The position numbers were made by a program, and so were the translations under genes. The notes under the pieces were generated by a model. It had not been told where the DNA came from. It saw nothing but the letters and a program-made list of their open reading frames with translations, and ran no database searches. 64,000 nt of DNA from Citrus sinensis (Eukaryota > Streptophyta > Magnoliopsida > Sapindales > Rutaceae), in contig NC_068563.1 of assembly GCF_022201045.2 (NCBI RefSeq), positions 29,857,001 to 29,921,000 on the forward strand. Reading direction: 5' to 3'. Within the stretch, counting starts at the first letter, position 1, and every line of letters begins with the position of its first letter. This document shows, piece after piece, positions 47,137 through 62,782 of this stretch.

Positions 47137-48666
47137 AAGCGGAAAGATGGCGTTTTGAGTAATTTCGATCTCCTTTTTTTTAAGTTTATAGTTATGATTG
47201 TTACTGCCAATTAATAATCGCTTGAACGTGTCGGAGTCGGTCTCTGTTACTTTTTGGTTGTTCGGAATTTTAAGTCGTTAATTGTAGTGGTGATCTCGGT
47301 GGTAGCTGGGGATTGATTGTTTGTGATGATAATTGTAGAGTTTGATTTACGTTTTCTTGTGTTGTATTATAAGGAGCTGTGGCCGCTGCGGGACTGCTTT
47401 ATCTACATTACTCTGTCTACCCCGCAGATACTAATAAGGTATTTATGATCATGTTTTTGCTTCTAATATTGCTGACTTCTGCTGTTTTTGTTTGGAATTG
47501 ATGTTCTGTGATTGATGTGGAGTCAAATCACCACTTGTGAAGTAAAGGGTAGCTGTAAGTTATGCAAAAGCACAACCGTTACAGACATTCTTTTAGTTCT
47601 GAGTTTTATTTGATTTTGCAAGGCAGTGTGTCATCTGGCCTTCATTTTACTCCAAAATGTCATTTTGGAAAACACCTGACTGTTCCATTACAGGTTATTT
47701 AGGTGGTTCTAGTACCATTTCTACCATTAGATTAACGAGGTATTCTCGTAGTCTACAGTCAACTCTTGAAAATCATGGGGAGGGATTGGGTTGTCATTAG
47801 TCTACTTCTAAATAAAAATAAGTTAAAAAATATTTTTTTTTTTCTTGGTAATAATTATTATTTGGGTAGAACTTAGAATTCTTCCTCTCGGGGAAGGACA
47901 ATTAGGAAAATCCTATTGGTTGCAGCTTTTTGTAGAGATAAAAGTGTTAGCAGGTGAATAATATTAGGAGTCTTTATAGATATTGTATTATTTAGATTTA
48001 GAAATTTAATTAGCAACACAGTTACAGAACCCCTGTTCATACAAATCAGAGCAGAACCTACCTCTGTTCTGAAATTCAAATAAGTAAAATAGAATTACAT
48101 GGACCACATATTTAAGTATAAATAGGACCCAACAATTAAGCAAGGGGAACAATACAACTCGAGGCAAAGGAAACTCAGAGAGGACATCAATGATCAGACA
48201 AAGAAGTTTGAAGACTGAAGAAAGTTCAAAAATCAAGACATCGCTGGAGACATCCAATTTACGAGCATAGAGAACCCCACAGTTTGAAAGCAATATGAGG
48301 ACTTTCTAAATATAAGTCTCTCATTACAAGATTTAAAAGAAACTTAGACGGCTACTTGCGGCTCAAGCAGAGATAATTGTATTTGTCACCACACTTTTAT
48401 TTTATTTTTATTACATATACGTAAAATGTTATATTGTGAAAAGAGTTGAAGGAAAAGGTGTGGGGAAACGTTGGAGCTGATGAGTTTATGTAGCTAATGA
48501 CCTGGTTAGAGCATTGTGAGTGGTAGCTATGTGGTGAAGTGTTAATAGTTTCTGGGATTGGAGCTCATGATTTGATAATAGCTGTTGAAGATGGAGGAAA
48601 TGGGTCATGAAATTGGCAACTCTGGTGGCACAATGATTTACTAACAGCTGAAACAAAGCTGTTGAT
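47137..48666. other. ELF4 3' region up to the retrotransposon
   Basis: A GC-richer 65-base patch at 47374-47438 is bounded by AG and GT and could be an exon. Sequence about 47862-48300 reads on the minus strand like an LTR or transposon fragment (TATTTATAC box, then a pyrimidine-rich stretch), but I found no second copy. Long open frames on its minus strand (47873-48079, 48006-48293) lack known motifs. Confidence 0.4.
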
Positions 48667-50049
48667 TGTTGAGTGTTAGAAAATGCATATTTATAAAGGA
48701 GAAAACCATCATTTTACATTTCAAGTCTTACTAACAACCCTTACTTTTATGTATTTAACCTTCTTGTGATTTAATTACATGTGTTTTATTTTAATTAAGT
48801 ATTTTATGTATTTTAGGGGCATCATAGTCATTTCACAATAAACGAGAAATCAGATGGCAAAACGGACATCACTTTTGAACTCAGGACGGTCGAAAACCTT
48901 AGGATGAGCATAAAAGGAAAAATGGCACTGTTCACTTGTACGGTACTATTCACGTGTACGGTACTGTATACGTTACTGTTCACAACACTGTTCACATGGA
49001 CGGATGATGACGTGGCATTGATCGATGATGTGGCATTGACTGATGAGGTGTCACGATCCTGTTGGACTAAAATTCTTATGTACTGTTGATGGTGACGTGG
49101 CAGCATATCAGTGGACGAAAAATCTCGCGTACGGTGCATGCATCACACAGGATTATTTTCAACCAAACCGCGTTACTGTTCATCCGGGTCAAACCGCGTT
49201 ACTGTTCAAAGTCGGGTCAAACCGTGTTACTGTTCATCCGCGTGGTCAAACCGTGGACTGTTGACTGATGACGCGGCGCAATCCTGAGCGTCCAAACTGT
49301 TTTTAATCCGATGGCCATGATTTACTCCATGTATCTATAAAAAGGGGGCCTCTCCCCCCTAATTTGATATCTATGAATCCATTTTTGGGATCCATTTTCT
49401 GTAATTCCTTCTCCATCTTGTATTTTCTTCGTATTTTAATAAATTTCCATTTTGCCCCTAGTTCAATTATGAGTGGCTAATTTTCTTTCAAGCTTGGGTT
49501 GAAGGTGAAGTCTCAACATGTGTCATGGGCTTAATTTGGTAAATTTATTTTCTCTTCCCCTCTAGTTTTTGTGGATGTTTTGACTTCTCGTCGACAAATA
49601 ATAATATTCTTGTCTAGTACCGCCTTGGTTTCACCGGCCCTCTAGTACAAGGTTATTATTATTTGGCACGATAAGCCCTTAGCACCATATTGATTAGAGC
49701 GTGGTTCATGAGGTGTGGATTCCCCCCTCATGATTTAATTGGCATTAATACGGATTATTTAGCCCATGATGCATGTTGATACGGATCCAGATACCCAAGT
49801 ACGTCATTTCAATATAATTCTCGTCAATTTATTCTCGCCATTTCAATACCAATTTTAGAATTTATTCTCGTCATTTTAATTTAAGTTTCAGCATATTCCA
49901 AATCATTTCCACCATAAATCCAATCACCCATTTACAAAATTAATTCTACACAATTAAAATCCACCTCCTCGTGGGATCGACACTCGTCACCATTGATCTA
50001 TACTACAATAGATTCGTGCGCTTGCGAGTACATTAAAATTTGCACAACA
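48667..50049 (+). repeat. 5' LTR
   Basis: 1383 bp, TGTTGAG...CAACA. The U3 part contains a run of TGACGTGGC-like motifs (49008, 49026, 49093, 49269) and four spaced copies of a CAAACCG-containing unit (49164, 49190, 49218, 49247), three of which read CAAACCGYGTTACTGTTCA. Promoter candidate CTATAAAAAG is at 49335-49344 and poly(A) signal AATAAA at 49438-49443, so R probably begins near 49370. Confidence 0.95.
49335..49344 (+). promoter_or_regulatory. LTR TATA box
   Basis: CTATAAAAAG followed by a G/C-rich stretch, about 100 bases before AATAAA. The identical copy in the 3' LTR is at 60463-60472. Confidence 0.65.
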
Positions 50050-50055
50050 AGTTTT

Positions 50056-50073
50056 TGGCGCCGTTGCCGGGGA
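50056..50073 (+). other. Primer-binding site, complementary to tRNA-Asp(GTC)
   Basis: TGGCGCCGTTGCCGGGGA starts six bases after the 5' LTR. It is the exact complement of the 3' end of plant nuclear tRNA-Asp including CCA (from memory of that tRNA). This primer is typical of Athila/Tat elements. Confidence 0.9.
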
Positions 50074-50431
50074 GGTAAGTACTTTTAATTCATAGAATTA
50101 ATTTTTGTGAATAATTTCTTTTATTTGTTTTCTTGTATTTTTTTTATTTTTATTAAAAAAAAAAGAAAAAAAAGTGAATCTACATTTAAAGGTTAGTATT
50201 TTTTTCTCTTCTTTAAAATTCTGTAATTTAATTTTCAATTTATTTTTCTTTGTAATTTTTTTTTGTTTATCTTATTAATTTATTTTTAGTTAATTTATTT
50301 CACGTATTTATTTTTGTGTATTTTTATAGAAAGGTTTTAATAGCGCAATAAGGTTAGTATCGTAATTTCTCCCTCTTCTTTATTTTTATTTGTTTTGTTC
50401 TCATCTTTATTTTTATTTTATTTGTTTTTGC

Positions 50432-53400
50432 ATGCATGGTCGTAGGTCATTATTACCTAATCTTGAACCTATAGACCTTGAATTAGAAAAAACACTTCGC
50501 ACACACAAACAAATTAAAAATAAAATGGATTTGCAACCACAGGAGAGGCCATTTAAGGACTACTTCAGTCCTTTAGCTAATTTGAGCACATCATGCATAA
50601 GATACCCAAATGTAGCTGCTAGGAGTTTTGAATTAAAACCTAGTGTGCTAAATTGTCTCCCCACATTCTATGGCCTAGAAAATGAGGACCCATATAATCA
50701 TTTGAATGATTTTCATGCCATTTGTCAAACATTTAAATATGAGAATTTTTCAGATGATGATGTTAAACTTAGATTATTCCCATTTTCTTTAAAAGATAGA
50801 GCTCGTTCATGGTTAAATACTTTACCTGCTAATAGCATTTCATCATGGGAACAAATGGTAACGAAATTTTTGAATAAATATTTCCCAGTGCATAAAACCA
50901 ATGCTATTCGCAGGGAAATCTCGGAGTTTACCCAGAAAGATGACGAGCAATTTTTCGAAACATGGGAGCGATTCAATGGGCTACTCTTGAAGTGTCCACA
51001 TCATGGGTACGAGAAATGGCATCAATGCCAATACTTTTTGGAGGGATTACTACCAAATGTGCAAGAATGGCTAATGGCAACAAGTGGAGGAGAGCTAATG
51101 TCAAAAAGTGCATCAGAAATTTGGGAATTCTTCCAGCGACAAGCAGATAATTCCCAACAACGGAGTCGATCACTTAGGACTACTAGAAGAATTAAAGGAG
51201 TGAATGAGGTTCAAATTGGCGAGTCAACTTCGGGAATCAAAGAAGTCAAGGAGATGGTTGAAGGTCTTGCTCGACAAATAGCATCGTTATCGACTGCTAA
51301 ATCAACAGAGCCACATGACCATGACTCATACTCAGATCAAGCCAATGCCATAGGTGTAATGAGAAAACCATCAAATTACAACCCATACTCCAACACATAT
51401 AATCCTGGATGGAGAGACCACCCCAATTTTTCATGGTCTCAAGGATTCCAACAGAATGGACCAGCAGCTCCAGCTCCACCAATGCAACAAATTCCTCAAG
51501 TTCCTCAAGCCTCTCAGCCACCATTTAGACCATACAATCATAACCAGAACCACTCTCAACCTAGACCATGGGAGGATGCATTCCAGAATTTCAGGAATGT
51601 TACTCACTCCACGATTGAGCAACAGAACCGCACCATTGATGGACTACGAAATGAGTTGAGAGCGGGCTTCAACTCACAAGCTCAATCTGTTTCAAGCCTC
51701 GAAAAGATGGTGGGACAACTTGCTTCTTCAGTTCAGACCTTGGCAATGACTGTTGAGAAAGGCAAATTTCCAAGTCAACCAGTGCCTAATCCTAAAGGAG
51801 TACATGAAGCAAGTACCAGTTCACCACAGCAGCATGGAGAGGTCAAAGCAGTAATGACCTTGCGAAAAGGAAAAGAAGTCGACAACAAAGTGGAGATGCC
51901 GGTGACAAAAGAAAATCAAATCGTACCTGTGAATGTTGAGGACTCACCACCGGAGGAAAAAGAAGAAACCAACCCACGAGAATATGTTCCGAAAGCTCCA
52001 TTTCCTCAGAGGTTAGCGAAAGGAAAGAAGGGAAAATCCACAGGTGAGATTCTTGAAATCTTCAAACAGGTAAGTGTTAACATCCCTTTACTTGATGCTA
52101 TTAAGCAAGTTCCATCTTATGCCAAGTTTCTTAAAGACCTTTGTACTAAAAAGAGAAACATGCATGTTCAAAAGAAGGCATTTTTAACAGAAAACGTTAG
52201 TTCTATACTCCAACATAAAATTCCTTTAAAATGCAAAGATCCAGGCTCCCCCACTATCTCATGTAGTATAGGGAACCACACAATTGAGAATGCTTTATTG
52301 GATTTAGGAGCTAGTGTAAATTTGTTGCCTTACTCTGTATTCGTGAAACTTGGACTGGGAGAATTACACCCAACTCCAGTGGTGTTACAGCTTGCAGATC
52401 GGTCCACGAAAATACCTCGTGGTATTGTGGAGGACGTGCTTATCCAGGTAGACAAGTTTTATTTTCCTGTTGATTTCATTGTAATTGACACTCAACCAAT
52501 ACAGGATTCAAGGAAGCACATCCCCATTATTCTAGGCCGACCTTTCTTGGCAACTGCGGATGCTCACATTCAATGTAGGACTGGAAATATGCAGTTGTCC
52601 TTCGGCAACATGACTATGGAGCTGAACATCTTCAACATTGCCAAACAACCTCACAGTGCAGATGATGGAATTGTTGATGTGGATTTAATTGAAACAATAG
52701 TTGATAACACTTTTCTTTCAAACCTTAGTGATGATCCTTTACAAACATGTTTAACTCACTTTGGTTTGGATTTTGATATTGACAGATCGGTCGATGAGGT
52801 CAACGCCCTGCTTGACTCAGCACCATCCATGGACACTAATAAATGGAAGTCAAGAGTTGAACAACTAGCACCATCAGAGAAGCAACTCATTCCATCATCA
52901 GAATCACCACCGAAACTCGAGCTCAAACCATTGCCCAACACTTTGGAATATGCATTTTTGGGGGAAGAAAGTACTCTGCCGGTAATCATCTCATCATCCC
53001 TCAATGACGAACAAAAAGGTAAGTTGTTAGATGTTTTAAAAGAGCACAAAGGAGCATTAGGATGGACCATAGCAGACATAAAAGGTATAAACCCAGTAGA
53101 CTGCATGCATTACATTCACCTTGATGAAAATGCTAAAACTACTAGGGAAATGCAACGTCGGTTAAATCCTAATATGAAAGAAGTTGTTAGAATTGAAGTC
53201 CTTAAGCTATTAGATGCAGGTATCATTTACCCAATTTCTGATAGTTCATGGGTCAGTCCTGTACAAGTCGTCCCTAAAAAGTCAGGAATCACAGTAGTTA
53301 CCAATGCTGATAATGAATTGATACCCACTAGAGTGACTACAGGATGGCGTGTATGCATTGATTATAGAAAGTTGAATTCTGTCACACGTAAAGACCATTT

Positions 53401-55819
53401 TCCTTTACCATTTATTGATCAAATGCTTGATAGATTAGCAGGACATGAATTTTATTGCTTTCTAGATGGCTACTCAGGATATAATCAGATTCCTATAGCA
53501 CCAAAAGATCAAGAGAAAACTACTTTCACTTGCCCTTTTGGCACATTTGCATATAGGAGAATGCCATTTGGATTATGTAATGCACCTGCTACATTTCAAC
53601 GATGCATGCTAAGCATTTTTTCTGATATGGTTGAACGATTCCTTGAAGTCTTTATGGATGACTTTTCTGTCTTTGGCAACTCGTTTGATCAATGTTTACA
53701 TCATCTAACACTAGTTCTGCAGAGATGTATCGAGAAGAACTTGATCTTAAATTGGGAGAAATGTCATTTTATGGTAAAACAAGGTATTGTTCTCGGTCAC
53801 ATCATTTCGAGCAAAGGTATTGAGGTTGACAAAGCCAAGGTGGATCTCATTTCTAATCTTCCTCCACCCAAAACAGTCAGAGAAGTAAGATCTTTCCTTG
53901 GGCATGCTGGTTTCTATAGACGTTTCATCAAAGATTTTAGCAAAGTTTCTAGACCCTTATGCAATTTACTTGCTAAGGATGTACATTTTATCTTTAATGA
54001 TTCATGTCTTATGGCGTTTGAAAAATTAAAGCAGTTGTTGACATCATCACCCATCATTCAGGCCCCAAACTGGAGCTTACCATTTGAACTCATGTGTGAT
54101 GCATCTGATTATGCAGTAGGAGCAGTATTAGGACAAAGAGTTGATCGAATTCCGCATGTTATTTACTATGCTAGTATGACATTAAATGATGCACAGTTGA
54201 ACTATTCAACTACTGAAAAAGAAATGCTAGCAGTAGTGTTTGCATTGGAAAAATTTCGATCATATCTCATTGGTTGTAAAATAATTATATTCACAGATCA
54301 TGCTGCTCTTAAATATCTTCTCACAAAGAAAGATGCAAAAGGTAGGCTAATTCGTTGGGTGTTACTTTTGCAGGAATTTGACTTGGAATTCAAAGATAAG
54401 AAAGGGACAGAAAATGTTGTGGCGGACCACCTCTCTCGTCTCCATTTTGACACAATTACAGAATCATTACCATTGAATGAGTCATTTCCAGATGAACAAT
54501 TAATGAATGTGGAAGTATTACCTTGGTATGCTGATATAGTTAATTATCTTGTTACAGGTAAACTTCCAGAGCATTGGACCAAGCAAGACAAGGCTAAATT
54601 CTTTGCAGAGATAAAGAATTTCTTTTGGGATGACCCGTATTTGTTCAAGTATTGTGCAGACCAAATTGTTAGACGATGTGTCCCAGAAAGTGAAATTCAG
54701 AATATCCTTTCATTCTGCCATGAACAAGCTTGTGGAGGCCATTTCAGTGCTAAGAAAACCGCGACTAAAGTTTTACAATGTGGTTTCTATTGGCCAACTA
54801 TATTTCGAGATGCTTACACTTTCTGTTCTTCATGTGATAGGTGTCAACGAATGGGGAGCATTACACGAAGAAACATGATGCCACTAAATCCAATTTTAGT
54901 GGTTGAGATTTTTGACGTATGGGGTATCGACTTCATGGGACCCTTTCCCCCGTCTTTTGGCCATCAATACATATTGGTTGCTGTTGACTACGTATCGAAA
55001 TGGGTAGAAGCAATTCCATGTAGGACCAATGATCACAAGGTGGTGATAGGATTTTTGAAAAGCAACATTGTCTCGCGCTTTGGATTCCCTCGAGCAATAA
55101 TCAGTGATGGTGGTGCCCACTTTTGTAACAAAGCATTCAAAGCTCTTTTGACAAAGTATTCAATCACACACAAAGTGGCGACCCCGTATCATCCGCAAAC
55201 CAGTGGCCAAGTTGAGATCTCCAATCGAGAAATAAAGCACATATTAGAAAAAACGGTGAGGCCGGACAGAAAAGATTGGTCATTAAGACTTGATGATGCC
55301 TTATGGGCATATAGAACGGCTTTCAAAACCCCGATTGGGATGTCACCCTACAGGCTAGTGTATGGAAAAGCTTGCCACCTACCTGTGGAACTCGAGCATC
55401 GTGCATATTGGGCCATCAAGAAATTCAATTTTGACATGCAGCAAGCCAGCTCAGAAAGAAGATTACAGCTGGCAGAACTTGAAGAAATTCGCAATGATGC
55501 ATACGAAAATGCCAAGATTTACAAGCAACGAATGAAAGTCTTCCATGATAAGCAAATTATGAGAAAATCGTTCACTCTAGGTCAGAAAGTGCTTTTATTC
55601 AATTCTCGCTTGCACCTATTCCCAGGTAAGTTACGCTCTCGTTGGTCTGGCCCATTTATTGTTCATACTGTTTTTCCACATGGGGCAATTGAAATTAAAG
55701 ACCCAAAGAACGGTGTCACGTTTAAAGTCAATGGTCAAAGATTAAAGCCATATCTAGAGTACCAACCACATGAAGAAGACACCGAAATAAATTTGAGTGA
55801 CCCACCAAAATTGAATTGA
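50432..55819 (+). CDS. Gag-Pol polyprotein of the Ty3/gypsy element
   Basis: One uninterrupted frame of 1795 codons from ATG 50432 (a second candidate ATG is at 50525). Residue numbers here count from the frame opening at 50390. The Gag core is at about 140-230 ([15 protein letters not shown]). The protease motif [12 protein letters not shown] is near 635. Reverse transcriptase has FMDDFSVFG near 1088. RNase H has [13 protein letters not shown] near 1235. The integrase HHCC finger is near 1443-1487. The integrase triad is IDFMG, SDGGAHF and GQVEISNRE, with exactly 35 residues between the second Asp and the Glu. All catalytic signatures look intact. No CX2CX4HX4C knuckle was found in the Gag part. 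Gag and Pol share a frame with no stop, so they are probably made as one polyprotein. Confidence 0.95.
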
Positions 55820-55949
55820 TTTTTTTTTCTTCTTTTCGTTGATTTGATTTTTCTTTCTTTCTTTTTATTATTATTCTTTTGCTAATTGAAATTTTTTTTG
55901 CATAAGTGTGTTTATTTTACCATTAAGTTTTCTCTTATCATTTTTAATC

Positions 55950-56183
55950 ATGAGTCTCATACTTAGACCGTTCCTCCTGAACATTCTTAAACCACTTCAA
56001 CGTGTCAAAACTCATCTCAAAAGGCAGATTCAATTTTGTAAAACACAACGCATTTGGGCTCTACAACCACCAGAGTTAGTAGCCTATGTTGAGGGTTTAG
56101 AACGCCAACTCAGAGACATTGAGAGAAGTGTTTACGACATCCAATTGGAGCTTGAGGTAAATTCAATAAGAGGACGATTTTAA
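55950..56183 (+). CDS. Small accessory ORF of the retrotransposon, unknown function
   Basis: 77 aa from ATG 55950, 130 bases after the pol stop. The first 40 residues are hydrophobic then basic (RPFLLNILKPL, then KTHLKRQIQF). The second half is heptad-like (VEGLERQLRDIERSVYDIQL) and could form a coiled coil. I do not recognise a family. It could be a captured gene, a remnant of an env-like gene or a chance frame; only position and composition support it. Confidence 0.4.
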   Translation: MSLILRPFLLNILKPLQRVKTHLKRQIQFCKTQRIWALQPPELVAYVEGLERQLRDIERSVYDIQLELEVNSIRGRF

Positions 56184-56324
56184 TTTTCTTTGTGTGTTTT
56201 AATTTGTTTTTCTGTTTGCGTGCTTTAGTTTGTTACCCCGGTGAAGTGGCGGATAACGGTACTCCGTGACAATCAAGTCGGTTACTTCAGTTTCCCATAA
56301 TAACTGATATTCTGAGGCGAAGGT

Positions 56325-56882
56325 ATGGACAGAAACGAGATTCTAGCGAAGCTTCACAAGCGATTCCCTTCACTTCCTCAGAATGCCCTCCTTACGATCT
56401 ATAAAGCTCGGTCCGAACGCATGCGATTACTCATGAGGAATAACATACCTGCTGACATCCGTTGGTTAATCGAGGCTAAAGTACGATCGGCGGGTGAGTT
56501 ACCTCCAAAATTTATTGCATTCATGCCTGGTTGTGGTAAAGGAAATTATGCAAGAAAACGACGAGCTCGAAGAATTTCTGTTGCTTGTCATAAGTGTGCC
56601 AGAATGAGTTGCAATAAAAACCCATGTTCTTTAGGAATGGTGTCTGATAACAGGGAAGATAAGATTCAATTCATTAGGGATGGCTTGAATAAGGAGTCAT
56701 TGGATGATATCCTTTTGTCTCTTGAAACGCATCCCAGTGGATATGTGCAAGGAGCGATTCTCCAGTTATGGCCATTATTCCAGAAAGAGCATGCACGATA
56801 TAGTCTCGGGAATCTGACTATAAACGACCCTGTTTGCCAGTTTATAAGAAAACTGGATAGGAAGCCTATCCTCGACCCATAG
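56325..56882 (+). CDS. Accessory ORF with basic patch and CCCC zinc-finger-like motif
   Basis: 185 aa from ATG 56325. A helical N-terminus (aa 1-60) is followed by the basic cluster RKRRARR (aa 77-83), then cysteines 88, 91, 96 and 101 spaced CX2CX4CX4C, then CSLGMVSDN and IQFIRDGL. The order of basic arm, cysteine cluster, C-x2-G and a downstream FI-x2-G resembles the cysteine-rich nucleic-acid-binding proteins of carlaviruses and relatives, although the cysteine spacing differs. The spacing also matches a retroviral CX2CX4HX4C knuckle with His replaced by Cys. Nucleic-acid binding is the safest inference. It lies between a small ORF and a LOG-like gene in the element's 3' region. The family call is unverified. 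Confidence 0.6.
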   Translation: MDRNEILAKLHKRFPSLPQNALLTIYKARSERMRLLMRNNIPADIRWLIEAKVRSAGELPPKFIAFMPGCGKGNYARKRRARRISVACHKCARMSCNKNPCSLGMVSDNREDKIQFIRDGLNKESLDDILLSLETHPSGYVQGAILQLWPLFQKEHARYSLGNLTINDPVCQFIRKLDRKPILDP

Positions 56883-57202
56883 AGGGCGTTCAAGCCGTTT
56901 CTGGACGTAAAACCAGAGGAAGATGTGAGCCACAGTCGCAACTACCTGTAAATATCCTTTTACTTTACTGTTATTTTATTTCACTATTGTCTTATTGTTT
57001 GCATTATTGTCTTTAATAATTTTATTACTGTTTGCTTTTTCCTTTTTACTGTTTTCTTTTTGACTTGCGAGCCACGTGCTTTACGCGTTATTTGACACTG
57101 ACATATTACCTCATACACAACCATGACCCACTATCACCAAGACTCTTAAATGTGATTTCGTTTTTGTCAAGCACTCACAAATTGTTTTTGAGAAGTATCA
57201 CA

Positions 57203-57871
57203 ATGTCAGCTACTCCCAATAGACAATTCAAGAACATTTGTGTGCTTTCTGGATTTACATATGGCAAACATAAAGAGTTCGTTGAGGCAGCCATAGATCT
57301 TGGTCGACGTATAGCAGAGAGAAAATTACACTTGGTGTATGGAGGAGGTAACCGAGGATTATCAAAAATGGTCTCAGAAGCAGCTTTTATCAGAGGAAGT
57401 CAAGTGTTAGGCATCATCCCAAGAGTTCTAAAACCATTGGGCAGTTCGTCTGACTCATCAACTGGAGAAGAGTTAGTCGTCTCAGGTATGCAAGAAAGAA
57501 TAACTGAAATGCTTAATCATGCTGATGCTTTTATTTTCCTTCCAGGAGATCTTGCAACACTAGAGGCACTTATCACGCTAGCATCTTGGGCCCATCTGCA
57601 CATCCACCAGAAACCCATCGGTTTGTTAAATGTCAATAACTTTTATGATGGCTTTATCGCATTTCTTAACCATGCAATAAAAAACTATTTCATTCCCGCT
57701 AATGTGAAAAAACTCTTTATTTGTGCTCACACTGCTAATGAGCTACTTGATCTGTTACAAGCTTATAAACCGGAGCCAGACCCCTGGACCTTTGTGTTGG
57801 AGCGCCCAAATAATGATGGTAACAGTAGCCGCAGTAAGAAGTACAAATTAGATTTAACTCTCCGCTTGTAA
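57203..57871 (+). CDS. LONELY GUY (LOG)-like protein carried by the retrotransposon
   Basis: An intact intronless 222-aa frame from ATG 57203, full length for LOG. LOG enzymes convert cytokinin nucleotides to active free bases in the cytosol. The fold is recognisable end to end: KNICVLSGFTYGK (aa 10-22), LVYGGGNRGLSKMVSEAA (aa 44-61), VLGIIPRVLKPLG, MQERITEM with Arg99, HADAFIFLPGD, and IHQKPIGLLNVNNFYDGF. The hallmark PGGxGTxxE appears as PGDLATLEA (aa 114-122): two Gly and the terminal Glu are replaced. Normal catalysis is therefore doubtful; the protein could bind nucleotides or have shifted specificity. Plant chromosomal LOG genes have introns, so the lack of introns suggests capture through RNA. 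Its location inside the LTRs means it moves with the element. Confidence 0.85.
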   Translation: MSATPNRQFKNICVLSGFTYGKHKEFVEAAIDLGRRIAERKLHLVYGGGNRGLSKMVSEAAFIRGSQVLGIIPRVLKPLGSSSDSSTGEELVVSGMQERITEMLNHADAFIFLPGDLATLEALITLASWAHLHIHQKPIGLLNVNNFYDGFIAFLNHAIKNYFIPANVKKLFICAHTANELLDLLQAYKPEPDPWTFVLERPNNDGNSSRSKKYKLDLTLRL

Positions 57872-57960
57872 ATATTGTTTTCTGTGTTGCACCACCCAGG
57901 TGATGTCTTCTAAACTCTACTTCTTTCCTTTCAAACATTGAGGACAATGTTTCATTCTGG

Positions 57961-57973
57961 TTGGGGGGAGGGA
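57961..57973 (+). other. Internal polypurine-tract-like motif
   Basis: TTGGGGGGAGGGA, preceded by GGTT, closely resembles the true 3' tract at 59785-59794 (both contain GGTTGGGGGG). It lies 90 bases after the LOG-like stop and could prime an extra plus strand, as central tracts do in some retroelements. Confidence 0.5.
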
Positions 57974-58040
57974 ATAGTCGACAATTGTGAAATTTTGGTT
58001 AAGTTTTTACTAATTTTTGTTGTAGAAACTAACTGTTGCT

Positions 58041-58271
58041 AACTTTTTGTGTCGAAGATGGCTGAATATGGAGTGTAGTGACTCTAGAAACGCATCTTCA
58101 TCGTAAAAAAAAATTAAAAAACTAAAAAATTTCAGACATTTTCTTTTTCTTTATTATATGTTTATGTTTATTTTTCTTCTTTTTAATTTCTCCTCTATCA
58201 ATATACATTTTCCAACTTTTGAGTCGAAGATGGCTGAATATGGAGTGTAGTTCCTCTAGAAACGCATCTTC
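58041..58271 (+). repeat. Two copies of a 59-bp unit with a conserved stem-loop
   Basis: Units at about 58041-58099 and 58213-58271 share GTCGAAGATGGCTGAATATG and CTCTAGAAACGCATCTTC. In each, GAAGATG (58054-58060, 58226-58232) can pair with CATCTTC at the unit's end (58093-58099, 58265-58271). The loop differs slightly between copies but the stem is kept. Confidence 0.75.
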
Positions 58272-59784
58272 TTTAAAAAATAAAAATAAAAAAATATTTT
58301 CGTTTTCTATCATTTTACATGTAACTTTTCTAATTAGTTTTTATGCATCATTTTCACATTTCTGCATGCATATTTTCCTTTCATGTTTAGAATAGGATGG
58401 GGGGTAGAATGTTGTTTAAAAAAAAAAAAAAAAAATTTTGTGTGATTTGTTTTAACATTGGATGACATGATTAATTTCAAATTTTAGTATTTGTATTATC
58501 TTTGGTCTTAAGTGATGTTACATTATGTTTGCTACTCTACATGTTGATGTCGGAGACAAATATGAGTTGCTTGAAGGAATGAACATGTCATAATAAGTAC
58601 CAAGTGAGTTTTTGAGCCTATTATTTTTCTTGGAGAATAACCCTTTTGCCCACTCTTTATACAGCTTAGCAGTTTATTATTTTATACACGATCTCTAGAT
58701 TTCTTTTGAGTTAACCCTTAATAAAAAGAAAAAAAAAAGAGAGAAAAAAAAGTGTGTTGCTACATTTGGAGGCCCATCTAACTAGTAGATATGGAAGGTT
58801 ATTTAGAGCCCTAAAAGACGATGGAAAGGCCATCTTTGATCTGTTTGAGCCTTTCTAGCCATCCCTTTTATTAAATATCCATAGTTAACCCTTTTGAGCC
58901 TTTAAAAAAAAAAAAAAAAAAACATTTTCTTTGTCAACTTATCATCTTGATCCACTCCGATTTGGAGTATTACCCGATGTCTTATAAGTTCCATCACCTA
59001 TTTATGTTTGAGAAAATGTAAATAATTATGTTTTTCAGTGAAGTTATGCCAAAAAAAAAAAAAACAAAAACAAAAACAAAAACAAAAGTTGTTGTTTCAA
59101 AAGAATAAAAATAACAATAATAGGTGAAATCCACCTTGCAACTTCCAAAAAAAAAAAAAAAAAAAATTCTCTGCATTTTTCTCAAACATACACTTTGTTT
59201 TCTCTATTTCCTTTCTTTGTTAACCATGTCCCTAGCCTACGTTACATCCTAATAAAAGTCCTTCTTGATTTTAGGGAACTATAATCTGAAGTAGAAGCTA
59301 GTTATATGGGCTAAAAAGATGTAGTGGTGCATATAAAAAAAATAAATAAATAAATTGGGTTGACTAACAGTTTTTATTTGACTTGAGATCGTATTATTTT
59401 TAAGCTGAGGGCATATTTATTTCATCTTGGCGAGAGCATGTGATATCACTTCTTCATTATTTTCTCTCAATTATCATTCATTGGAGTGACTATTTTTATT
59501 GGGTTTAATTTCTTTGTGAGAGTGTCACTACTTCCAGTGAGATTTTGGGGTTTGACATGTCATTCTTGAAAGTAGTTATAACAAAGTCTACTGGGCTGAT
59601 TCATGTGGATGGTTGATGTGGCTGTGATGTTACTTTAGACTGGAGATAATGCTTATACTTTTATTTGATTGCTATCATTAATCTGATTGAATAAACACGA
59701 GTGTTTCTAAATTTAAAAAAAAAAAATCATTTTGAATTTGAATTTTATTTTCGCTTCATTTGCTAGGGACTAGCAATAAGCTGG
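58100..59784 (+). other. Non-coding 3' region of the retrotransposon
   Basis: After the LOG-like ORF the element has about 1.9 kb with many A or T homopolymers (for example 58419-58435, 58903-58921, 59147-59165) and an (AAAAAC)n tract at 59050-59086. No long frame is convincing. Long 3' non-coding regions are common in Athila/Tat elements. Confidence 0.6.
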
Positions 59785-59794
59785 TTGGGGGGTG
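59785..59794 (+). other. Polypurine tract
   Basis: TTGGGGGGTG lies immediately before the first base of the 3' LTR, the required position for plus-strand priming. Confidence 0.8.
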
Positions 59795-61177
59795 TGTTGA
59801 GTGTTAGAAAATGCATATTTATAAAGGAGAAAACCATCATTTTACATTTCAAGTCTTACTAACAACCCTTACTTTTATGTATTTAACCTTCTTGTGATTT
59901 AATTACATGTGTTTTATTTTAATTAAGTATTTTATGTATTTTAGGGGCATCATAGTCATTTCACAATAAACGAGAAATCAGATGGCAAAACGGACATCAC
60001 TTTTGAACTCAGGACGGTCGAAAACCTTAGGATGAGCATAAAAGGAAAAATGGCACTGTTCACTTGTACGGTACTATTCACGTGTACGGTACTGTATACG
60101 TTACTGTTCACGACACTGTTCACATGGACGGATGATGACGTGGCATTGATCGATGATGTGGCATTGACTGATGAGGTGTCACGATCCTGTTGGACTAAAA
60201 TTCTTATGTACTGTTGATGGTGACGTGACAGCATATCAGTGGACGAAAAATCTCGCGTACGGTGCATGCATCACACAGGATTATTTTCAACCAAACCGCG
60301 TTACTGTTCATCCGGGTCAAACCGCGTTACTGTTCAAAGTCGGGTCAAACCGTGTTACTGTTCATCCGCGTGGTCAAACCGTGGACTGTTGACTGATGAC
60401 GTGGCGCAATCCTGAGCGTCCAAACTGTTTTTAATCCGATGGCTATGATTTACTCCATGTATCTATAAAAAGGGGGCCTCTCCCCCCTAATTTGATATCT
60501 ATGAATCCATTTTTGGGATCCATTTTCTGTAATTCCTTCTCCATCTTGTATTTTCTTCGTATTTTAATAAATTTCCATTTTGCCCCTAGTTCAATTATGA
60601 GTGGCTAATTTTCTTTCAAGCTTGGGTTGAAGGTGAAGTCTCAACATGTGTCATGGGCTTAATTTGGTAAATTTATTTTCTCTTCCCCTCTAGTTTTTGT
60701 GGATGTTTTGACTTCTCGTCGACAAATAATAATATTCTTGTCTAGTACCGCCTTGGTTTCACCGGCCCTCTAGTACAAGGTTATTATTATTTGGCACGAT
60801 AAGCCCTTAGCACCATATTGATTAGAGCGTGGTTCATGAGGTGTGGATTCCCCCCTCATGATTTAATTGGCATTAATACGGATTATTTAGCCCATGATGC
60901 ATGTTGATACGGATCCAGATACCCAAGTACGTCATTTCAATATAATTCTCGTCAATTTATTCTCGCCATTTCAATACCAATTTTAGAATTTATTCTCGTC
61001 ATTTTAATTTAAGTTTCAGCATATTCCAAATCATTTCCACCATAAATCCAATCACCCATTTACAAAATTAATTCTACACAATTAAAATCCACCTCCTCGT
61101 GGGATCGACACTCGTCACCATTGATCTATACTACAATAGATTCGTGCGCTTGCGAGTACATTAAAATTTGCACAACA
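59795..61177 (+). repeat. 3' LTR
   Basis: 1383 bp, the same length as the 5' LTR. By eye I find four differences, all transitions (positions 60112, 60228, 60402 and 60444 against 48984, 49100, 49274 and 49316). Followed by the TTGAT duplication at 61178-61182. Confidence 0.95.
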
Positions 61178-62782
61178 TTGATCATGGTGGTAAGTGATGT
61201 TGTATTGCTGAGAGGTTTGTTTCAAGTAAATTTAAGCAACTTAAAACTGAAGACACATGCCGAACAACGGGACTAGATTTTTTGAGGCTGGTGATGCTCT
61301 TTGTGGATATTGATTGTTGTCTGGTGGAGGTGGTTTAACTTGGTTTACAGATGCAGCTGATGAAAACATGTCAGTGTTTGTCTGGGAGGAGCCATTAAGA
61401 TTTGGAGGACTAGGCAAGTTTTAGGTGTATAAAGATTACTGTTATGATTGTCTCATTGGGAAATTTATTTATGAAATTTCATTTTCAAGGTTTTTCTTGC
61501 TATTATTTATAGTATAAGATTAGGAAGATGTATAACAGAAATGATGCTTTCTGGAATTGTTCCTGGGTTCTGACAGCTGAGTCTGTAATAGCAGTTTTAA
61601 TTTATTCATCAATATAGGATGTAGCTTGGGCTTCATACAGTACGATGATGTTATAATTCTTCCTAAATTCATTTTATTGGATATTTTATTTCTTGTATTG
61701 TTTGGCGGATTTCATAATTCATACCTCCTCCTTGACTTGGGGACGAGCTCAAAAGACGGCTGCTTGTTTTTCTCTTGTTCTTCTCTTTCTTTCAGGGGTA
61801 AGTGAAGATAAATTAGGGGTATTTTTGGATTCTTTTTGACGATGGATGAAATCAATCCGTTATGTTCTGTGACATTGTATGAGATCAAGTCGTTTGTTCC
61901 CCCACCACAGTTGCATCAGTCTATTGGTTCAACTGTTTTCCAATATTAAAAATGCATTTGAGACAAATCATTGTCTTCTATCAATCAGTAACGTTTTTTC
62001 TTTTTCTGAGATGTAAGTAACCCAAGGAGCATTAATCTGGAATTATTCATTAATCAGCCACTCACCTCGTATTCTATTGTCGTCATTGGATATGGCACAG
62101 CCGGCTAAAATATTTTAGGTATTGAATTCGATGGAACTAATGTCATTATGAACCCGTCATGCTTGTGCTCTACGATAATATTCACAGCTTTCCGATTCTA
62201 ATGGAATAGTGTCGTGGCTCAATTCCATGCTTTCCCGCTGATAATCTACTGGTTCGCTAAGAAAGCATTGCATGTAGGCGTGCAGGCTAGATGCCAACTA
62301 TCAATCAATTCAACCTCACAATCTCTCACGAACTTTTTCCTCAAGCATTTTTTGTGTCAACATCTATGTCTTAATTCAAAGCAACTGAAGTTATTCTTGA
62401 ATCTCCTTTAATAGGAAAAGTTTTTGGCAAAATAAATTGTACTTCGGTCCTTGCGCAAAAATGTTCGAGTTCCACATTGTCATGTGGCTGACGACTGTTA
62501 ACAACAAACACAAGTATTGATATGGATTCCAGCATTCGGTACTTATTTCGGTGCTTCCATAAGCTTCTTCTACACAAGTTAGAAAAGAAACACTAAATGT
62601 GATGAGATAGCTATCAGAGAAAAGGATCCCCTTAAAATGAAGCACCAGCTTGGCAAACAACCTAGGACATTTTAAAATGTCTATTACATGATAAATAGGC
62701 AAATTATGAGTATCTTCATGAAGGTTGAAAAGACGAGAGGACTAAAAAGGTGTATAGCGTAATTATATAATTATGGGGGAAA
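61178..62782. other. Spacer between the retrotransposon and the cyclophilin gene
   Basis: Continues the sequence broken by the retrotransposon and holds the cyclophilin 3' flank at its right end. Small frames at 62214-62411 and on the minus strand at 62371-62702 have no family resemblance. Nothing else recognised. Confidence 0.45.

Follow-up and report, generated by a model that had tools for sequence, protein, structure and literature searches.

The 64,000-nucleotide stretch of Citrus sinensis DNA analysed here (NC_068563.1, positions 29,857,001 to 29,921,000; called the window below, with positions counted from its first letter) carries a long terminal repeat (LTR) retrotransposon that is, by its domain order and its primer binding site (PBS), an intact Athila-like element. 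Downstream of gag-pol, between the pol stop (55819) and the start of the 3' LTR (59795), three open reading frames (ORFs) of 77, 185 and 222 amino acids (aa) follow one another on the plus strand: ORF 1, or O77; a basic, cysteine-rich protein similar to the nucleic-acid-binding proteins (NABPs) of plant viruses; and a protein derived from LOG, a plant hormone-activating enzyme (Table 1). A preliminary description, made from the letters alone, had proposed this arrangement, and it bears up: the element has both LTRs, a target-site duplication, a PBS and the Ty3/gypsy domain order, the three ORFs are the longest ATG-initiated ones on the plus strand of 55820-57900, and chance ORFs were ruled out by 1000 dinucleotide-preserving shuffles, in which a frame of at least 185 aa occurred in 1, one of at least 222 aa in 0 and two of at least 185 aa in 0. 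Its placing of the ORFs in the env position is correct as to location and says nothing on whether they are env-like in nature.

A cassette shared by hundreds of copies

The genome searched was the 299.7 Mb assembly of 11 contigs, in which the window element lies on contig C8. The window-type LOG motif PGD(L/F)AT(L/F)EA has 832 exact sites genome-wide, whether in an intact frame or not, against 0 for the reversed pattern; the host-type motif GGYGTxEE has 8 (L043-L050), all in intron-split genes and all canonical by construction of the search pattern. When the genome was searched with PF03641, the best 150 of 1560 candidates were all above the cut-off and without internal stops. A search with the NABP gave 1882 candidates, the best 150 of which were 98-100% identical and, in 149 cases, stop-free, and with an NABP of subfamily A as the query the best 150 of 1883 candidates spanned 100% to 70% identity, with many broken copies in the tail. 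Subfamilies A, B and C, the three that are live, conserve one order of the cassette genes, and D, a fossil sister lineage, keeps the order integrase-NABP-LOG; among 30 B copies, one (L025) has no LOG in the stretch retrieved.

The PBS occurs in 969 exact genome copies, 630 of them followed directly by the splice donor-like sequence GGTAAGT. On contig C1, a LOG motif lies 6-10 kb downstream on the same strand for 38 of the 61 sites with both PBS and donor, 35 of these at 7.37-7.58 kb, compared with 1 of 22 PBS copies without the donor and 0 of 83 in an opposite-strand control. Because of these copy counts and of the co-occurrence of PBS and LOG on C1, we conclude that the cassette is the usual state of the family, found in hundreds of copies, rather than the peculiarity of a single insertion. 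Some points weigh on the other side: only one A copy on C1 has an exact PBS, and it is without the donor; the copies are related and their counts non-independent; and those retrieved are mostly the best-scoring.

Several same-strand pairs of NABP copies are 11.12-11.17 kb apart (L015/L016 on C1, L030/L031 on C2, L036/L037 on C3, and C8:14243633/14254800). This spacing is near the length of one LTR plus the internal region, 11,128 bp, and suggests tandem elements sharing an LTR through unequal recombination.

Selection on the three ORFs and the fate of the LOG active site

The 74 cassette loci analysed correspond to 67 distinct copies, seven subfamily-A copies being represented twice (L006-L012 equal L066, L051, L052, L061, L062, L063 and L064). 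Usable ORFs were obtained from 58 loci for LOG (A 30, B 27, C 1), 70 for the NABP and 67 for O77 (distinct copies 51, 63 and 60), and a usable integrase from 54 of 66, the other loci being excluded as broken or incomplete. The B loci L013-L042 and the A loci L051-L080 were chosen by NABP similarity, which lowers the number of nonsynonymous substitutions per site (dN) within subfamilies for the NABP and affects the comparison of A with B less.

Between A and B the proteins are ~54% (ORF 1), 67-68% (NABP) and 74-75% (LOG) identical, and the mean ratio of dN to its synonymous counterpart (dS), by the method of Nei and Gojobori (NG86), is 0.33 for O77 (1044 pairs), 0.24 for the NABP (1020 pairs) and 0.21 for LOG (810 pairs), at a dS of ~0.75-0.96 for LOG and NABP. 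The C-terminal part of the integrase, taken as a yardstick, gives 0.07 (725 pairs) with dS saturated. For one pair, L020 and L066, the codon bootstrap 95% ranges are 0.13-0.28 for LOG, 0.14-0.36 for the NABP and 0.16-0.67 for O77, and a ratio of 1 was reached in 0, 0 and 1 of 1000 replicates, respectively. Given the three mean A-B ratios, all three ORFs are under purifying selection between these well-separated subfamilies. The preliminary description had named a single copy, or dN/dS near 1, as what would speak against a functional cassette; what was found is hundreds of copies and A-B ratios of 0.2-0.35. Less favourable to selection is an A-C pair of NABPs (L066-L085) with a ratio of 0.53, where 50 of 1000 replicates were at least 1, and so is the scatter of ratios within subfamilies, 0.07-0.88, including 0.70 for O77 in B and 0.88 for the integrase in A, although such a spread is as expected for young, largely unselected insertions. 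In the pair L020-L066, identity at four-fold sites is 35/74 in the integrase and 84/125 in the cassette (window 54920-57868; Fisher p 0.007), with a sharper split inside the integrase (p 0.0007) that was chosen post hoc; this is only suggestive of an exchange of the 3' region or cassette between element lineages.

Scanned as a frame of 279 codons, LOG gives a PF03641 match at 1e-27, and the 222-aa ORF matches TIGR00730 with 126.3 bits, above the cut-off of 96.35, and Arabidopsis 2a33 at 5e-45; the cut-off of the NCBIfam equivalog NF058542 is not reached (90.5 vs 300 bits). The homology with plant LOG enzymes (AtLOG3, 2a33; AtLOG8, 1ydh) extends over residues 7-190, and the element protein differs from both in having no catalytic motif, in being intronless and in lying inside a retroelement. 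Thus the full-length LOG homologue of the preliminary description stands as far as homology goes (TIGR00730, 2a33), while the loss of the catalytic motif had gone unmentioned there, and the view of the protein as a hormone-activating enzyme is not supported: the motif glycines are gone in 58 of 58 usable loci, and Glu122 is replaced by Ala in 57 and by Val in 1.

Residue numbers in the window protein coincide with those of Corynebacterium CgLOG, as judged by the motif. In CgLOG, catalysis is proposed to depend on Arg99 and Glu122, the adenine site is made up of Met96, Lys100 and Glu121, Gly116-Thr119 contact the phosphate, and Ala at AMP-binding or catalytic residues, except S19A, nearly abolished activity (PMC4979012; this and the other articles are cited for the sections of their text that were accessible). 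All 58 usable loci have D116, L117, A118 and I100; they also all have T119, E121, M96 and the LVYGGG motif, with P114 in 56 and Arg99 in 57 (Gln in L085). Because the motif glycines, Lys100 and Glu122 are replaced, the LOG-derived protein is very probably non-catalytic, and we read it as a probable conserved pseudoenzyme. Since A, B and the sole usable C copy share the replaced residues, the A-B ratio of 0.21 would have been measured after the loss of the active site, unless the changes arose repeatedly. Caution comes from MmLOG, which has Ala and Asp at two AMP-contact positions occupied by Ser and Glu in other LOGs (PMC4979012), from R99, T119 and E121, whose retention leaves room for a weak or altered activity, and from single-sequence AlphaFold models of low confidence (pLDDT 38 and 41).

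Within the LOG ORF of B copies, an in-frame stretch of 60 nt (window 57486-57545) has intron-like bounds, the highest-scoring acceptor and the fifth-best donor of the internal region, splice sites being scored throughout with a rough weight matrix. All 27 B loci have the donor and none of the 30 A loci does, and this candidate intron would be specific to B.

As for where the LOG gene came from, a search for PGGxGTxxEE found three sites, one in a host gene and two in degraded elements, L087 and L088, which make up lineage D. These have remnants of integrase (~47-62% identity), NABP and LOG, arranged alike and interrupted by stops and frameshifts, and their LOG pieces read PGGLGTLEE, so that A, B and C, the live subfamilies, share the replaced catalytic residues and D does not. 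A search with the L088 piece ranks L087 and L088 first, then A/B-type copies at 50-55%. In a LOG tree of 127 columns, built from five transposable element (TE) LOGs, host LOGs and four plasmid-borne bacterial LOGs, the TE LOGs form one clade (98/95), within which A-C (99/97) and D (99/98) are clades as well, and host and TE LOGs are separated from the bacteria (87/92), which places the TE LOGs nearer to the plant than to the four bacterial proteins used. The TE ORF is intronless where host LOG genes have introns, and because of this its capture from a spliced RNA would fit. We infer a single capture of LOG, with a plant gene as its apparent source, the loss of its active site before the A/B/C split and conservation of the protein thereafter. 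Against this account it must be said that the reversed control of the PGGxGTxxEE search gave 1 chance match beside the 3 matches, that Lys100 is already Leu in D, which may itself have been impaired, that the branch joining the TE LOGs to plants has no more than 87/92, that the grouping of the host LOGs gets 47/0, too little to point to a source gene, and that the tree carries a warning that long branches meet.

The NABP-like protein, candidate RNA signals and other features of the element

NABPs of the carlavirus type have a basic stretch followed by CxxC and two more cysteines. The 185-aa protein is basic and has a finger-like cysteine cluster, CHKCARMSCNKNPC (Cx2Cx4Cx4C); the basic region is followed by the cluster as KKRRAKRLGSKCHNCVRLGCKRPDC and variants, and a C..C...C...C cluster occurs in 68 of 70 usable loci. 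Eight NABPs were scanned with Pfam at E up to 1: that of the window, a subfamily-A copy (L006) and six copies of the C lineage. Carla_C4 is matched by seven and Viral_NABP by six (E 4e-4 to 0.07), and ten locally shuffled controls matched neither (0/10). The window protein matches Carla_C4 at E 0.011, a C2H2 finger at 0.049 and Viral_NABP at 0.069, all below cut-off; L006 scores best, with Carla_C4 at 3.9e-4 (20.8 vs a cut-off of 20.9 bits) and Viral_NABP at 5.8e-4 (20.3 vs 23 bits). The likeness to viral NABPs claimed in the preliminary description is thus present as a weak similarity below the Pfam cut-offs. What the element protein shares with carlavirus-type NABPs (PF01623) and Viral_NABP (PF05515) is the basic stretch and the cysteine arrangement; it differs in the spacing of its cluster, in scoring below the cut-off and in lying inside a retrotransposon. 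Its assignment suffers from the fact that none of the eight exceeds the cut-off of PF01623 or PF05515 and that L082 matches neither family and L086 Carla_C4 alone, both having an altered cysteine cluster. No relative turned up in viral_contigs when LOG and the NABP were used as queries, or in genome_contigs when the NABP was. Because a pattern scan of Gag-Pol found no CCHC zinc knuckle and the NABP motif is present, we find it rather probable that the 185-aa protein acts as a separately encoded nucleocapsid or a silencing suppressor that binds RNA or DNA.

The consensus donor directly 3' of the PBS ranks 4th of 485 GT sites in the internal region, and it would serve to make a spliced subgenomic RNA. 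Across the NABP stop codon lies a conserved block, its limits read by eye, where the bin 56824-56923 has 96% A-B identity and the adjoining bins 0.71 and 0.82. It is possibly a cis-acting RNA element, which we prefer to read-through because, in the open stretch after the NABP stop, all 4 differences between L020 and L066 are non-synonymous. Read-through of the UAG would add 22 residues to the NABP, and 66 of 73 loci have this frame open, yet selection at the protein level was not seen and the candidate was dropped, as was a conserved hairpin in the block (fold z = -2.6), one GGAUAGG/CCUAUCC pair of which breaks in A copies, as read by eye. The block, kept in A, B and C copies alike, ends at a donor-like GTAAAT. 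Splicing could remove 72 nt at the end of ORF 1 (window 56157-56228), from a donor GAG|GTAAAT to the TTTAG that closes a T-rich stretch; with the frame read by eye, this candidate excision would give ORF 1 another tail of 23 residues.

Table 1. Positions in the window of the element's parts and of the candidate signals
Feature	Position	Strand	Remark
Target-site duplication TTGAT, 5 bp	left 48662..48666, right 61178..61182	unstranded	
5' LTR, TG...CA ends, 1383 bp	48667..50049	+	
PBS TGGCGCCGTTGCCGGGGA	50056..50073	+	
Consensus 5' splice donor GAG|GTAAGT, directly 3' of PBS	50075..50080	+	candidate donor
gag-pol, one ORF (gag, protease, reverse transcriptase, RNase H, integrase)	50390..55819	+	pol stop at 55819
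Accessory ORF 1 (O77), 77 aa	55950..56183	+	
Accessory ORF 2 (NABP-like), 185 aa	56325..56882	+	
Nucleotide-level conserved block across NABP stop codon	56833..56960	+	limits read by eye
Accessory ORF 3, LOG-derived, 222 aa	57203..57871	+	
Degenerate LOG catalytic motif P114 G D L A T L E A122, replacing PGGxGTxxE	57542..57568	+	
Internal G-rich polypurine tract GTTGGGGGGAGGG, 3' of LOG ORF	57960..57974	+	role inferred
3' polypurine tract GGTTGGGGGGTG	59783..59794	+	
3' LTR	59795..61177	+	

In the rest of the element, Pfam domains along 50531-55816 follow the Ty3/gypsy order, reverse transcriptase, RNase H and integrase after gag and protease in one polyprotein, and the PBS TGGCGCCGTTGCCGGGGA is the complement of what we take to be a tRNA-Asp 3' end, the Athila/Calypso type. 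The two LTRs are 99.7% identical, with 4 mismatches and 0 gaps across 1383 bp; at plant LTR substitution rates of ~0.7-1.3e-8 per site per year, the insertion would be roughly 0.1-0.2 million years old. The bin around the internal polypurine tract (57924-58023) is 85% identical to subfamily A. Between LOG and the 3' LTR, an 82-column repeat, 88% identical and containing TCGAAGATGGCTGAATATGGAGTGTAG, is found at 58041-58121 and 58214-58294, parts of which align also to an A copy. Rfam snoR71 (RF00097) matches the minus strand at 50906-51009, antisense inside gag, with 48.6 bits against a gathering threshold of 40; this is either a small nucleolar RNA-like antisense RNA in the element or a model picking up Athila-type gag. 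Other ORFs of the window match plant gene families, e.g. the UBA-like domain of At5g58720.

What the cassette may do for the element

We think it likely that the three genes of the 3' cassette benefit their carrier, an abundant Athila-like family that has been active recently. In the mechanism that we propose, splicing from the post-PBS donor would yield a subgenomic RNA, the 185-aa protein would bind nucleic acid as a nucleocapsid-like or anti-silencing factor, and the LOG-derived protein would act through its fold and its dimer interface, without catalysis. The LOG fold might assist the NABP or the particle, as a structural partner or by binding nucleotides, a proposal that we put forward tentatively. 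It seems doubtful that the protein pairs with host LOG subunits, poisons the shared active site and lowers the local activation of cytokinin, and we find it unlikely that env was replaced by a virus-style NABP plus a decoy LOG that would interfere with host LOG dimers or sense nucleotides.

Could the cassette instead be a passive passenger, that is, a host LOG sequence transduced once, spread by a successful master element and functionless? The degenerate LOG motif would agree with this, and LTR elements are known to transduce host genes, reportedly in one or few copies (PMC7264820), but the low A-B ratios of LOG (0.21) and NABP (0.24) at a dS of ~0.75-0.96, the L020-L066 bootstraps that almost never reach 1 and the gene order shared by A, B and C, and for integrase, NABP and LOG also by lineage D, make it highly improbable. 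We also regard as quite improbable a LOG that is still an enzyme of altered chemistry, acting on another nucleoside monophosphate or as a weak phosphoribohydrolase, and raising cytokinin or a purine base. The conservation of R99 (57/58) and of M96, T119, E121 and LVYGGG (58/58 each) is in keeping with such an enzyme, as is the PGGLGTLEE retained in lineage D; against it, E122A and K100I affect proposed catalytic and adenine-site residues of CgLOG (PMC4979012), and G116D places an acidic residue where main-chain groups bind the phosphate.

A dominant-negative effect, in which the TE LOG would block the shared host dimer site and shift cytokinin signalling in the element's favour, for instance in meristems that form germ cells, draws on the fact that the LOG active site is a pocket formed by dimerisation (PMC4979012) and on a protein that is conserved while the loss of its catalytic residues is fixed; with TE and host LOGs only ~30-57% identical per exon piece, we hold it to be unlikely. 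The last alternative concerns a virus-derived module, the NABP and the small ORF coming from a plant RNA virus, as movement protein or suppressor, with LOG added later. The matches to Carla_C4 (7/8) and Viral_NABP (6/8), found in none of the ten shuffled controls, point that way, while every score lies under the curated cut-off, L082 matches neither family and L086 only Carla_C4, the exact-word scan of viral_contigs found no viral relative, and Pfam gives no viral match for the ORF-1 frame; such an origin is improbable.

The Athila/Calypso elements were reportedly treated by Wright and Voytas in 2002 as an 'endogenous retrovirus' lineage, and Steinbauerova et al. are said to have found, in 2011, two Athila-like elements similar to LOGL4. 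With Athila/Calypso the element shares the Ty3/gypsy domain order, a tRNA-Asp-type PBS, a length of ~12 kb and sense ORFs between pol and the 3' LTR (PMC7264820); it differs in that its env position holds three small ORFs, known from sequence alone. Athila elements are numerous in Citrus (PMC6466647, PMC7145672); the accessible text of the former is without the terms lonely, cytokinin and lysine decarboxylase, and that of the latter without log and cytokinin. The preliminary description had taken LOG in such elements to be undescribed, which proved wrong: gypsy consensuses of C. sinensis and C. clementina with a LOG-type (YgdH) domain have been published (PMC9289625, citing Steinbauerova 2011), and the domain was also found in Populus trichocarpa with one filter off. 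The published Citrus elements share the LOG-family domain with ours and very probably belong to the same or a near family; in the accessible sections of PMC9289625, no NABP-like partner, purifying selection or loss of the catalytic motif is reported for them. Neither a LOG and NABP cassette nor a LOG pseudoenzyme in a retrotransposon was found among the titles and abstract starts listed in the literature searched, which included few subscription papers. What appears new against these is the conserved three-gene set, its selection and the lost LOG active site; the LOG domain in Citrus gypsy elements was already known. A comparable case is that of Phalaenopsis gypsy elements with an AlkB RNA demethylase ORF, likewise a captured enzyme domain fixed in a gypsy lineage, although that domain is active in vitro (PMC9289625) and the active site of the element LOG appears lost.

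The role of the extra 3' ORFs in plant Ty3/gypsy elements is an open question in the field. Here one such ORF has a known ancestor, an active-site loss whose place on a tree can be given, a later selection that can be measured and hundreds of copies, and the accessory function becomes directly testable, as a pseudoenzyme acting on hormone metabolism or as a fold used as a building block. Should the virus-like nature of the NABP be confirmed, it would connect retroelements with plant RNA viruses, and a LOG that is conserved although its active site appears lost suggests that its use to the element is other than hormone production.

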